Assembly: GCA_030648615.1 (NCBI GenBank)
Contig: JAUSHJ010000040.1
Span: forward strand, 1 to 64,000
Origin: Microcaldota archaeon
GTDB taxonomy: Archaea > Micrarchaeota > Micrarchaeia > Anstonellales > Bilamarchaeaceae
Reading direction: 5' to 3'
Length of the DNA stretch: 64,000 nucleotides
Shown: positions 17,208 through 63,946 of the stretch, piece by piece
Numbering within the stretch: position 1 is the stretch's first letter
Layout of the letters: every line of letters starts with the position of its first letter
Translations under genes and position numbers: made by a program
The notes under the pieces: generated by a model
What the model was told of the DNA's origin: nothing
Databases searched by the model: none
The model's input: the letters and a program-made list of their open reading frames with translations, nothing else

Positions 17208-17312
17208 TGAGACAAGATATATCTAGTCTCAATCTATACAGAACCAGTGTCACGACAATTCGTGACACTATTTGTCAACAATGTTGACAAACCAAAGTTG
17301 GTTCTGTATATA
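17208..17312. repeat. Nested/tandem hairpin cluster A
   Basis: TATACAGAACCA...TGGTTCTGTATA enclosing GTGTCACGACAATTCGTGACAC and TTGTCAACAATGTTGACAA; preceded by GAGACAAGATATATCTAGTCTC. Confidence 0.85.
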
Positions 17313-17354: not shown

Positions 17355-17571
17355 AGCGGGGTAACGCATTCTAAAACTTTTTAACATTTAGGGTGCGCCT
17401 CATGGGGAGCTTGGAGTTCCCGCTGGAAGTTGTATCTAGTATTTCTTATTGGATACATCTGGCAAAGCTCATAACCCAGTTGTGTCTTTTGATTAAAAGA
17501 TGCAGGGCAAAGATCGATGGTTCAAATATTTGAACCACTTTTGGTTTGAGTTGGAATTCCATCCCCCGCTA
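17355..17571 (+). tRNA. Initiator-like tRNA-Met(CAT) with about four inserts
   Basis: AGCGGGG...CCCCGCT-A acceptor; GGGGAGCTTGGAGTTCCC D-arm; G-CTCATAA-CCCAG anticodon arm; GATGG-TTCAAA...TTCCATC T-arm, with hairpin-forming inserts between. Confidence 0.85.
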
Positions 17572-17595
17572 TTTTTATTTTTTTTGAGTCTAGAG

Positions 17596-17822
17596 TTCCC
17601 AATTGTTCATCGTTATGAACAACACAATTTTCCGAAGTATCGGAAAATGTGCACATTGTTGCGTACAACAATTGTGTGGGCGCAATTATTTTCTGCGGAA
17701 AATAATGCATTGTCGGCAGTGTCAAAAATGCCGACAAGTATTGACGCGTATAGCGTCAATGCACATTGACAACACTTTGATTCATTGTCAATTGCGCATT
17801 GTTGCTCTGAGCAACAATTGCG
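17596..17822. repeat. Tandem hairpin array B, about eight consecutive hairpins
   Basis: TTGTTCATCGTTATGAACAA; ATTTTCCGAAGTATCGGAAAAT; TTGTTGCGTACAACAA; ATTATTTTCTGCGGAAAATAAT; TTGTCGGCA...TGCCGACAA; ATTGACGCGTATAGCGTCAAT; ATTGACAA...TTGTCAAT; TTGTTGCTCTGAGCAACAA. Confidence 0.9.
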
Positions 17823-17862
17823 TTTAGTCTCCGGTTTAGTGTTTCGAATTTTCTATCTAGTT

Positions 17863-18816
17863 CTAATTCACACTGCATCTAGAATTCGTACACGTGCTAT
17901 TTCCAGAAATAACTGCACATGATAAAGTAGCCGAGTTTACATCGTTTCCTTGGCAGTAGTACTCTAAAACTTTCGAGCTATCCACGCAAGTGTCCTGATA
18001 AAGAATTCCTGAGGCTACAACTGAACCTGCAATTTCTCTAGTTATTCCATCACTGTCAGTGCAACCAGTAGCATTCAAATTAGTAATACAAGCTCCATTT
18101 GTACAATGCGTGAGCGTAGGGCAGTTAACCAGATCATATGCTGAAGTATTTCCATTACAATAATATTCCGTTAATATGTTATTGGTGCATTTATCATCTG
18201 AGACGTCTAAGAATCCAGAATTATCATCTATTGTTACCTTACCAAATGTTGATATATTATATCCATCACTATCAGTACAAGTAGTTTCTTTTCTTATGCA
18301 TCTTCCATCATAACAATTAGTTTTTTCAGGGCATTCAGATATTGCACCATCTACCAGATTATCCTTGCAACTATACTCACGTATATTTTTGTTCCCGGTG
18401 CAAGAATCAGTTTTAGTATCTCCGTTCAATTCCACAGTTCCTTTCGTGAATAAGTCACTGTCATCACTATCGGTACACGTGTTATTTTTCTTTGGGGTGC
18501 ATTTACCGAAATAACACTGATACCCTTGTGGGCAATTTATTTTTTCTATTTGTACTAAAGATTCATTACAATAATTTTCTTCCAAAGTTGTTATGCTGGT
18601 ACAATGATCGGTAAACTTCTTATTTGCTAAAGTGACAAATCCTTCAGTGTATATATCTATTGCATTACTTCCATTACAATAGTCTGCAGGTGTAGGAATT
18701 GTTTCTATCGTAGAGTTATTATTAGTTTTATTATCTAAATTTACTTTGTTTTTACTATTAGAAGTACAACCAAACAATAAAACCAAAACTACCAGACACA
18801 GAAGAAATTTTTTCAT
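17863..18816 (-). CDS. Secreted cysteine-rich lipoprotein-like protein with internal repeats
   Basis: Signal MKKFLLCLVVLVLLFGC; repeated CTDSDG...C...YCNG...CP units. Confidence 0.75.
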   Translation of the reverse strand: MKKFLLCLVVLVLLFGCTSNSKNKVNLDNKTNNNSTIETIPTPADYCNGSNAIDIYTEGFVTLANKKFTDHCTSITTLEENYCNESLVQIEKINCPQGYQCYFGKCTPKKNNTCTDSDDSDLFTKGTVELNGDTKTDSCTGNKNIREYSCKDNLVDGAISECPEKTNCYDGRCIRKETTCTDSDGYNISTFGKVTIDDNSGFLDVSDDKCTNNILTEYYCNGNTSAYDLVNCPTLTHCTNGACITNLNATGCTDSDGITREIAGSVVASGILYQDTCVDSSKVLEYYCQGNDVNSATLSCAVISGNSTCTNSRCSVN

Positions 18817-22026: not shown

Positions 22027-22134
22027 GACAAGCTTGTTGCTTAGGGCAACAAGATGTCCACGCAATTGTCGAGCGCGACAATGCGCACATTGTTCGAAAC
22101 ATCGAACAATTGTGTTGTTGCAATGCAACAATTG
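22027..22134. repeat. Tandem hairpin array D upstream of gcvH
   Basis: TTGTTGCTTAGGGCAACAA; CGCAATTGTCGAGCGCGACAATGCG; ATTGTTCGAAACATCGAACAAT; TTGTTGCAATGCAACAA. Confidence 0.9.
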
Positions 22135-22167
22135 GATGCTAGAAGTTTGAGATTCGCTGGTGTTTTT

Positions 22168-30231: not shown

Positions 30232-30599
30232 GGGCCCGTAGCGCAGCTAAAGTTTTGAGTCTCGATTTCTGTGTTTCGAATTTTATTCATTCGAAACCAA
30301 AAGTAGAAAACTGAAAACTTCTGCTATGGACAGCGCGGCAGCCTTCTAAGAAATTTCTTTCGGTAATCTAAAGAAATTTCATAAAGAAAGAGGAAAGCTG
30401 TAGGTCATGGGTTCAAAACAGTCTTCAGTCTTGAAGTTTTGAGTCTAGTAAAATTATAATTACGAGACGTGAAACAGGACAACCATAAATCGACAAGCTT
30501 GTTGCTTCGAGTGATAAGATGCTCAGTGTTCGAACAATCGAACACTCGGGAACATCGATTTATCGGGAACTGGAGACAGTGTATTTCCCATCGGGCCCG
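30232..30599 (+). tRNA. tRNA-Arg(TCT) with D-loop, anticodon-loop and T-loop inserts (368-nt gene)
   Basis: GGGCCCG/CGGGCCC-G acceptor; GCGC...GCGC D stem; GCAGC-CTTCTAA...GCTGT anticodon arm; ATGGG-TTCAAA...TCCCAT T-arm. Confidence 0.85.
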
Positions 30600-41580: not shown

Positions 41581-41603
41581 TAATTTATTTCATGTTCTTT
41601 CTT

Positions 41604-41662
41604 TCTACTGTAAATTTTATTTAATTTACAACAGGACAAATTAATTTTGTAATTTGTCTTTT
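41604..41662. repeat. Palindromic element family F copy
   Basis: TACTGTAAATTTTATTTAATTTACAACAGGACAAATTAATTTTGTAATTTGTC. Confidence 0.8.
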
Positions 41663-42279
41663 CAATAAATCACAAATGTCGCTTTTTTGTCTTTAATAAC
41701 ATATTTTCCCTTAGAAAAAGAATTTACTACCTTTCTATAAGCTTCATGCTCGCGTTTCAATATCTTTTCAGAAACTTCTCCTATTGATTTACAATTACTA
41801 ATATCTACTTTTTCCTGATATATTATTGGTCCAGCATCAAGTTCTTCGTTTACAAAGTGAATTGTCAAACCGCTGATTTTCTCTCCAGCTTCAAATGCCT
41901 GTTTCTGTGCATCAACACCTGGGTATTTCGGCAATAAGGATGGGTGGATATTGATTATCCTGTTTCGGTAGACATCGAACAGTTCTTTTGCTTTTAGAAG
42001 ACGCATATATCCTGCAAGCACTACCAGTTCTACGTTGTTACTATCGAGAATTTGTTTTATTTTCAAATCCATTTCCTCGCGTGTTTTGAATTTTGAACGT
42101 TCTACTACTTCATATTTTATTCCAGACTTCTTCGCACGTTCTATTGCCTTGGCATCTGGGTTGTCAGTTATGAGTATTTTTATTTCGCAATTCACTTCTC
42201 CATTTTTTATTCCATCTATAATTGCTTGAAAGTTACTTCCTCTTCCAGATGCAAGTACTGCTATTGAGATTTTTGCCAT
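41662..42279 (-). CDS. purN: Phosphoribosylglycinamide formyltransferase
   Basis: MAKISIAVLASGRGSNFQAIIDGI, VLAGYMRLL, INIHPSLLPKYPGVDAQKQAFEAGEKISGLTIHFVNEELDAGPII. Confidence 0.95.
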   Translation of the reverse strand: MAKISIAVLASGRGSNFQAIIDGIKNGEVNCEIKILITDNPDAKAIERAKKSGIKYEVVERSKFKTREEMDLKIKQILDSNNVELVVLAGYMRLLKAKELFDVYRNRIINIHPSLLPKYPGVDAQKQAFEAGEKISGLTIHFVNEELDAGPIIYQEKVDISNCKSIGEVSEKILKREHEAYRKVVNSFSKGKYVIKDKKATFVIY

Positions 42280-42315
42280 AATAATACTTGCTGGAATAGG
42301 TTTAAAGATTTTCAT

Positions 42316-42376
42316 TGTACTATAAATTCTATTGAATTTACAACAGAACAAATCTCTTGTCGATTTGTTCTTGTTT
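42316..42376. repeat. Palindromic element family F copy
   Basis: TACTATAAATTCTATTGAATTTACAACAGAACAAATCTCTTGTCGATTTGTTCT. Confidence 0.75.
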
Positions 42377-51828: not shown

Positions 51829-52090
51829 CATGTGTCAATTCGGCACGGAAACTCATGGTTTGACGCGTAACGCCGCGTCAAATATTGACACGATACGTCG
51901 TGTCAATGGATTGTCAATACTTTGTTGACAAATAGTGTCACGAATTGTCGTGACACTGGTTTTAACCTTGGGAGGAAGTGCCGAATTTACACAACTTTGC
52001 CCTCCCAATTGTTCGACGCTTCGAACAATGGGCATATTGTTGCTTATAGCAACAATCTTGTAGGCTGTGGTGGCCGAATGGGCAAATCAT
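51829..52090 (+). repeat. Two-stem structured element, copy 1, expanded by hairpin insertions
   Basis: CATGTGTCAATTCGGCACGGAAACTCATGGTTT...TTTTAACCTTGGGAGGAAGTGCCGAATTTACACAACTTTGCCC...GGCTGTGGTGGCCGAATGGGCAAATCAT. Confidence 0.85.
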
Positions 52091-58513: not shown

Positions 58514-58642
58514 CATGTGTCAATTCGGCATGGAAACTCATGGTTTTAACTTTGGGAGGAAGTGCCGAATTTACACAACTTTGCCCTTCGGCCCTAATGA
58601 AACCACAGCCTTTAGGCTGTGGTGGCCGAATGGGCAAATCAT
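58514..58642 (+). repeat. Two-stem structured element, copy 2, compact
   Basis: TTCGGCATGGAAACTCATGGTTTTAACTTTGGGAGGAAGTGCCGAA then TTTGCCCTTCGGCC...ACCACAGCCTTTAGGCTGTGGTGGCCGAATGGGCAAA. Confidence 0.85.
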
Positions 58643-62960: not shown

Positions 62961-63845
62961 TTAATTGTTTGCAATATCAAGAATACTCTTGAACGTTGCG
63001 TAGGGGAATGCACCGCTTACTAGTACACCATAATTCCCTGCATCATCCTCAAATCCAACCACTGAAGTTTGGTATTGTGGTGGTAATGCATTTCTAACTA
63101 CTGCAAATTTTGCCTGGAAATCAGGAGCTTTGGTCTTTGGCATTACTATAAACACTGCAGGAGTTCCCTGAACACCATATTGTTGGCCAATTGCAGCATC
63201 TGCAGTTATAGCATCTTTGTATTTAGATGTTGAAATGCACGATGCAAATTTATCTGCATTTAAATTAAGTGATGTAGCATATGCTTTGAATTTATCACTT
63301 ACCGCAGTGCCTGCTAAGTTACTCCACTCATTCTGGCTGACAAATAATTTGTCATGATATTCCCAGAACTTGCCCTGTTCATTTGCACATCTTGCAGCTC
63401 CTGCTGCTGGTTCTGCATTCGGATGGAATGGCAAAGGATAGTCTCTGAAGTACAGTTTTGCTTTTCCAGTATCGACATAATTTGTTTTCATCTGTGCTCC
63501 TGCTTCATTGTAAAACTTGCCACAGTAAGGGCACTGGAAATCACTGAATTCTATGATTGATACGACACTATCATTGTTACCTCGTGCTACGAAGTCTCCT
63601 CCTGGCAGTGCTGGTATTCTAATAAGTTCTACAGGGCTGCTACCAGTTGTAGTGGTTGTCGTATCTGTAGTTCCTACTGTTGTGCCATTAGTATCTGTAG
63701 TTCCTACAGGAGGTGTCGTCTGTTTAACAATTCCAAATCCACCTGTAAATACAGATGCTATTAATAGTATAGCTAAAACAGCTATTACTACTCCATAAAT
63801 TGTTCCTTTGCTAAGCGTTACGCTATCATTATTTTCGTCTCCCAT
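62961..63845 (-). CDS. DsbA-like thioredoxin-fold protein
   Basis: SIIEFSDFQCPYCGKFYNEAGAQMKTNYVDTGKAKLYFRDYPLPFHPNAEPAA (CPYC); N-terminal TM anchor. Confidence 0.93.
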   Translation of the reverse strand: MGDENNDSVTLSKGTIYGVVIAVLAILLIASVFTGGFGIVKQTTPPVGTTDTNGTTVGTTDTTTTTTGSSPVELIRIPALPGGDFVARGNNDSVVSIIEFSDFQCPYCGKFYNEAGAQMKTNYVDTGKAKLYFRDYPLPFHPNAEPAAGAARCANEQGKFWEYHDKLFVSQNEWSNLAGTAVSDKFKAYATSLNLNADKFASCISTSKYKDAITADAAIGQQYGVQGTPAVFIVMPKTKAPDFQAKFAVVRNALPPQYQTSVVGFEDDAGNYGVLVSGAFPYATFKSILDIANN

Positions 63846-63867
63846 AAAAATCCCCCATTTTTATTCT

Positions 63868-63946
63868 CCAATTTTTCGTTAGCGAAAAATGGACCACAAA
63901 TCGAATCGATTTGTAGGTCTCGAAATTCTTTGAATTTCTCGATCCC
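63868..63946. repeat. Tandem hairpin array O upstream of the DsbA-like gene
   Basis: TTTTTCGTTAGCGAAAAA; ACAAATCGAATCGATTTGT; CGAAATTCTTTGAATTTCTCG. Confidence 0.85.

Follow-up and report, generated by a model that had tools for sequence, protein, structure and literature searches.

Positions 17598-17822 of the window, by which we mean the whole 64,000-nucleotide stretch of DNA analysed here, hold an array of eight hairpins, each formed by perfect arms of 7-9 bp. The window belongs to a metagenome-assembled genome (MAG) of Ca. Micrarchaeota, 1.65 Mb in size, and the array adjoins the 3' end of a downstream gene, a minus-strand open reading frame (ORF, 17863-18816) with a lipoprotein-like N-terminus. 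A first-pass annotation had described about eight back-to-back hairpins at this locus, and they prove to be real: when the 227 nt were dinucleotide-shuffled 2000 times, the number of hairpins never exceeded four (mean 0.41) and perfect arms of at least 7 bp covered at most 58 nt, whereas such arms account for 134 of the 227 nt in the array itself. The shuffling control that the annotation had itself proposed therefore does not refute its observation. The next-best 227-nt stretch elsewhere in the window has six hairpins. The array also folds stably as RNA, with z-scores of -8.5 on the plus strand and -7.7 on the minus strand and none of 200 shuffles equally stable. Scans of the organism's own genome were made on stretches of it (L-numbered) plus the window; in 226 kb chosen regardless of matches, clusters of at least two hairpins occur at 5.3 per 100 kb, against zero in Markov-1 shuffles. 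Taken together, the shuffle, fold and cluster-density controls rule out chance or an AT-rich composition as the source of the array.

Several details of the earlier description need revision. The GTGC and CGCA motifs that it called spacers are mostly nothing of the kind: they pair together, and every stem thereby continues for 3-4 bp beyond a single bulged base, as in CACA-ATTTTCCGA..TCGGAAAAT-GTG, where the stem runs on past a single bulged A. The arms differ from hairpin to hairpin as described, their sequence changing whilst the structure stays, but arm sequences are not unique, as the modules recur genome-wide: BLASTN with the array finds 30 places in its own genome, and among 58 relatives three have matches, two of them belonging to one other genus. 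The statement that this is neither CRISPR nor a simple tandem repeat stands. Identical direct repeats with unique spacers, as expected of a CRISPR array, are not found, the only direct repeats being two of 12-13 nt with two copies each. No match to the array was found among the known RNA families in Rfam.

The hairpins were correctly recognised, but the single hairpin is not the repeating unit. The basic unit is instead a mirrored double hairpin of 51-57 nt that carries no gene and occurs both nested and dispersed. Its layout is NNN-b-stem-N'N'N' followed directly by MMM-stem-b'-M'M'M', with b standing for one bulged base; 3 bp, a 5' bulge and a stem of 7-10 bp are followed at once by another 3 bp, a second stem and a 3' bulge. 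On the opposite strand the unit is its own mirror image. Among adjacent pairs of stems with one-base bulges, the order 5' then 3' is seen 22 times and all other orders together once, with none in shuffles. In an alignment of examples the feet are CAC, CGC, CAT and CCC. A covariance model (R1) was built from 18 examples found by strict pairing; across 106 distinct R1 matches, which are structure-selected, both partners of a pair have changed in 349 cells (88 in shuffles), in line with the earlier view that structure rather than sequence is conserved. In GC-rich distant genomes the stems are different (for example ATTTTTCGG/ATTTGTCC), while feet, bulges and length hold.

Read in these terms, the array in the window resolves into nested parts (Table 1). 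The inner unit scores 62.9 bits (plus strand) and 59.6 bits (minus strand) with R1, and there are paralogues with and without it (L028 and L031 against window 52028 and L062). The four-hairpin block is absent from the paralogue L031 8524, and a 93% identical copy of it lies at G000:C32:13959-14084. When 17623-17676 and 17681-17794 are taken out, the remaining 57 nt fold as a canonical double hairpin and sit at T^T (^ marking the insertion point) in a small imperfect hairpin. A plausible history would be that the unit made of H1 and H8 landed at T^T in this small hairpin, that a second unit (H2 and H3) landed in the foot of H1, and that the block H4-H7 landed at the H1/H8 junction.

Table 1 Hairpin features of the window, with positions and strand (a dot where none is assigned)
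Feature	Position	Strand	Remark
Whole hairpin array, nested double-hairpin elements	17598..17822	.	hairpin scan, fold
Hairpins H1-H4	17603-17622, 17627-17648, 17655-17672, 17685-17706		
Hairpins H5-H8	17710-17737, 17740-17760, 17765-17792, 17798-17818		
Outer unit part 1: CCCAA + H1 (arms 17603-17622)	17598..17622	.	foot TGGG resumes 17677-17680
Inner 54-nt double-hairpin unit (H2, H3)	17623..17676	.	apparently inserted at CAA^TGGG in H1 foot
Four-hairpin block H4-H7	17681..17794	.	at junction of outer unit
Outer unit part 2 (H8): CGC-ATTGTTGCT..AGCAACAAT-T-GCG	17795..17822	.	
Presumed target hairpin, left arm (GAG.CTAGA..)	17584..17597	.	pairs with 17823-17838 when joined; weak, one mismatch
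Presumed target hairpin, right arm (TTTAGTCTC)	17823..17838	.	
Two hairpins (AGTGTCACGA.., TTGTCAACA..) inside ATACAGAACC/GGTTCTGTAT stem	17236..17310	.	closely similar modules in E1 tip 51832-52090
Second array, unit at 22061-22114	22028..22135	-	upstream of gcvH
Weaker double-hairpin unit, GA^A flanks	30494..30550	.	R1 26.2 bits
E1 (TCAT, then GTGTC...GGGCAAATCAT), four hairpins in tip + unit 52004-52060	51832..52090	+	
E1 without nested hairpins, empty form	58517..58642	+	

The same architecture is found in many arrays across the genome, which hold between three and nine hairpins and reuse modules in recurring orders. Counting both strands, R1 matches number 93 in the organism's own genome, 58 in G013 and 32 in G001, the last two being species of another genus. 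Matches occurred in 18 of the 59 genomes of a first search set and, more widely, in 25 of 295 Micrarchaeota genomes, spread over six families (f1, f5, f17, f22, f23 and f26). Plasmid, phage and viral collections gave no match to the element, although for viruses this is weak evidence of absence because the scans used exact patterns.

The distribution bears on whether the hairpins might be a functional structured RNA or a transcript-processing element, such as a terminator or an RNA-stability array, maintained by structural selection. A stable fold, compensatory changes and an intergenic setting, here by the 3' end of a gene, would all suit such a role. However, loci differ in which modules they contain and in what order, both strands show the same architecture, Rfam holds no match and most genomes of the phylum are without units, and we regard an RNA function as very unlikely.

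Paralogous and orthologous loci were also compared. At several host sites paralogues differ by exactly 51, 53 or 54 nt, the empty side having a gap of zero and no target duplication being present. The unit at L024 7731-7781 is missing at window 58587 (flanks 97-98% identical) and that at L031 8466-8519 is missing at L062 1949 (flanks 90-91% identical); L039 and L058 have host sites that resemble that of the window's second array but lack its unit. An identical 54-nt unit lies in two different host hairpins, at L026 9806 and L028 8290. Differences are also seen between species: at one orthologous locus (aligned at about 78% identity) in G001 and G013, which belong to the same genus, G001 has a 109-nt insert of hairpin plus unit where G013 has none, and G013 in turn has an inserted hairpin pair that G001 lacks. 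These differences look like insertions rather than losses.

The sites occupied by units are far from random. In the organism's own genome 12 of 38 copies are nested at CAA^TG or CA^TTG, the foot of another unit, and 15 of the 26 non-nested copies lie at GA^A/T^TC (background 0.039, p 3e-15); several of the latter sites are triloops with a closing C-G pair, for example GTCGC-GAA-GCGAC (L029 11640) and TCAC-GAA-GTGA (L064 3761). In relatives, the flanks of 31 copies form a stem of at least 5 bp in eight cases (0.6 expected) and of at least 7 bp in six. Units are mostly intergenic, with 10 of 51 copies in ORFs of at least 130 amino acids against 83% of random points. These observations fit a model in which each unit enters another hairpin and duplicates no target, the site being either T^TC (GA^A) within a small loop or CAA^TGG in a unit's foot. 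Insertions aimed at hairpin loops and feet would therefore pile up into branched arrays that can still fold.

Spread of the hairpins need not involve a transposase. Template switching at palindromes during replication, coupled with gene conversion between arrays, could also leave perfect stems with compensatory changes through palindrome correction, and the fact that no enzyme has been identified agrees with this. Such a process does not, however, predict precise units of 51-54 nt at a preferred target, including at loci with unrelated flanks, nor the fixed mirrored order of the bulges, and we consider it quite improbable.

We therefore favour the view that the arrays are nests of non-autonomous mobile double hairpins, and put its probability at roughly 0.7. 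It builds on what comparison of sequences shows about the architecture of the units, their dispersal and nesting, the lack of duplication, the target preference, the mostly intergenic location and the presence or absence between species. Strand symmetry, bulge order and the use of loops as targets suggest further that the unit probably moves as single-stranded DNA with its two hairpins folded, and that a putative enzyme supplied in trans would recognise the unit by shape and not by sequence. Because the element has the same appearance whichever strand is read, DNA is favoured over RNA as the recognised form.

A number of points weigh against mobility. Movement is read indirectly, from comparison, and filled and empty sites give no direction, so that some could be precise losses. 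The preference for GA^A/T^TC is weaker in relatives (6 of 31 non-nested copies, background 3.3%, p 4e-4). The covariation counts come from matches that were found with a structure in mind (18 by strict pairing, 106 by the model) and are thus partly a selection effect. No mobilising enzyme could be linked to the units in the genomes searched: Y1 (PF01797) genes occur in 109 of all 295 genomes and in 8 of the 25 with units, and neither reverse transcriptases nor tyrosine recombinases show a consistent pattern with the units. As the genomes are incomplete MAGs, the enzyme could lie in gaps.

A narrower form of the same idea names the enzyme: the units would be REPIN-like elements, each a pair of inverted, bulged hairpins that a RAYT/Y1 (HUH) transposase, acting in trans, excises as single-stranded DNA. 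Some features agree with this. Like bacterial REPINs, the units are short, gene-less, intergenic and dispersed in many copies, with bulged stems in an inverted hairpin pair (22 mirrored pairs, no reversed order), as in descriptions of REPIN and REP sequences (PMC3116915, PMC6006769), and the organism's own genome has one Y1 gene. That gene, however, is an IS200-type tnpA whose flanking hairpins are of other sequence. The units, which are archaeal, also lack the GTAG and CGTC feet (or CnGA of class 3) of REPINs, having the feet listed above and variable left flanks, and they differ in how widely their arms vary within one genome and in nesting in hairpin loops and feet. Membership of the REPIN/RAYT system is not supported because Y1 transposases do not track the distribution of the units, with gaps in the MAGs as a caveat, and we judge it unlikely.

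Other candidate mobilisers were tried and rejected. A reverse transcriptase in the organism's own genome adjoins ORFs that by eye resemble diversity-generating-retroelement targets, and one in G013 resembles, again by eye, a group II intron protein; neither is convincing. The genes between neighbouring units in G001 include no candidate. L148 1288-3360 (G000:C71) has a reverse-transcriptase ORF beside GPVGRDD-type repeat proteins, an arrangement like that of a diversity-generating retroelement, with an array at the start of the contig.

Hairpin pairs of comparable form are known from organelles. The mitochondria of Allomyces and other fungi contain double-hairpin elements, paired hairpins proposed to be mobile (as cited in PMC5910586 and PMC7218506). 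Going by the description given there, these elements resemble the units in having two adjacent stem-loops, in being dispersed and in their presence or absence between relatives. The archaeal units differ in their chromosomal setting, mirrored one-base bulges, paired 3-bp feet and GA^A/T^TC and CAA^TGG targets, and we do not claim common descent. The GC clusters of yeast mitochondrial DNA, too, are palindromes that move and combine into compound clusters of hairpins (PMC4478555), but their architecture and sequence are different and an AG target is reported for GC42.

Several nested units are hosted by a separate repeat, E1, which runs from GTGTCAATTCGG (after TCAT) to GGGCAAATCAT and has hairpin units inserted in its loops and junctions. 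Four identical 128-bp copies lie at unrelated places; E1 is seen in the window and in G000:C64, C63, C40 and C12. Nearly every distinct insertion has TCAT as its left flank, and TCAT stands at the right end of the copies too, the flanks being otherwise unrelated. Several contigs end inside E1, which therefore breaks assembly too. The closest comparison is with ends-only elements of the insertion sequence (IS) family IS200/IS605 (PMC7290912): like IS200/IS605-derived PATEs, E1 lacks inverted terminal repeats, shows TCAT at either end and contains internal, subterminal hairpins. The likeness holds for E1 and not for the double-hairpin unit, and no IS with E1 ends plus a gene was found. In the organism's own genome there is no TnpB, and the single tnpA copy has other hairpins; assembly gaps are possible.

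Other repeats of related form were also noted. E3 is another hairpin pair (AGGACAAATT..AATTTGTCCT GTT GTAAATTC..GAATTTAC), seen at window 41595-41663 and 42309-42372, at L028 10459-10524 and at about 4750-4850 in L017; a pair similar to it distinguishes orthologous loci of two species, one having the pair and the other lacking it. A further type, CTCCA[..]TGGACC[..]GGTC, lies at L185 4439-4616, where other hairpins stand between its two halves, at L039 2308-2373 and at window 63844-63930. Longer stretches of 600-1000 bp (L052 4147-5935, L029 1589-2209) are repeated several times in the sampled sequence.

Upstream of the array, the tRNA-Met proposed by the first-pass annotation was found neither by ARAGORN nor by Rfam, even at E-values up to 10. 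What lies at approximately 17355-17571 is possibly a tRNA interrupted several times, likewise undetected by both, with acceptor-like ends (AGCGGGG..CCCCGCT), an anticodon-like CTCATAA loop and a T-arm-like GATGGTTC..CCATC.

We found no description of such an element in Micrarchaeota in the open-licence literature searched. A stronger proposal, that the units form an archaeal mobile family read by DNA shape, moved by a kind of enzyme new to such hairpin pairs and building branched arrays out of itself by landing preferentially in the loops and feet of other hairpins, is one that we put forward tentatively and think somewhat doubtful. Bacteria and organelles commonly contain palindromic repeats, but how these spread and are recognised is mostly open. 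Here, a fixed architecture with changing stems, nesting at short preferred targets and the existence of filled and empty sites, both within one genome and between sister species, make shape-directed insertion testable with short synthetic DNAs. If true, it would add a small type of mobile element to those of the DPANN archaea.
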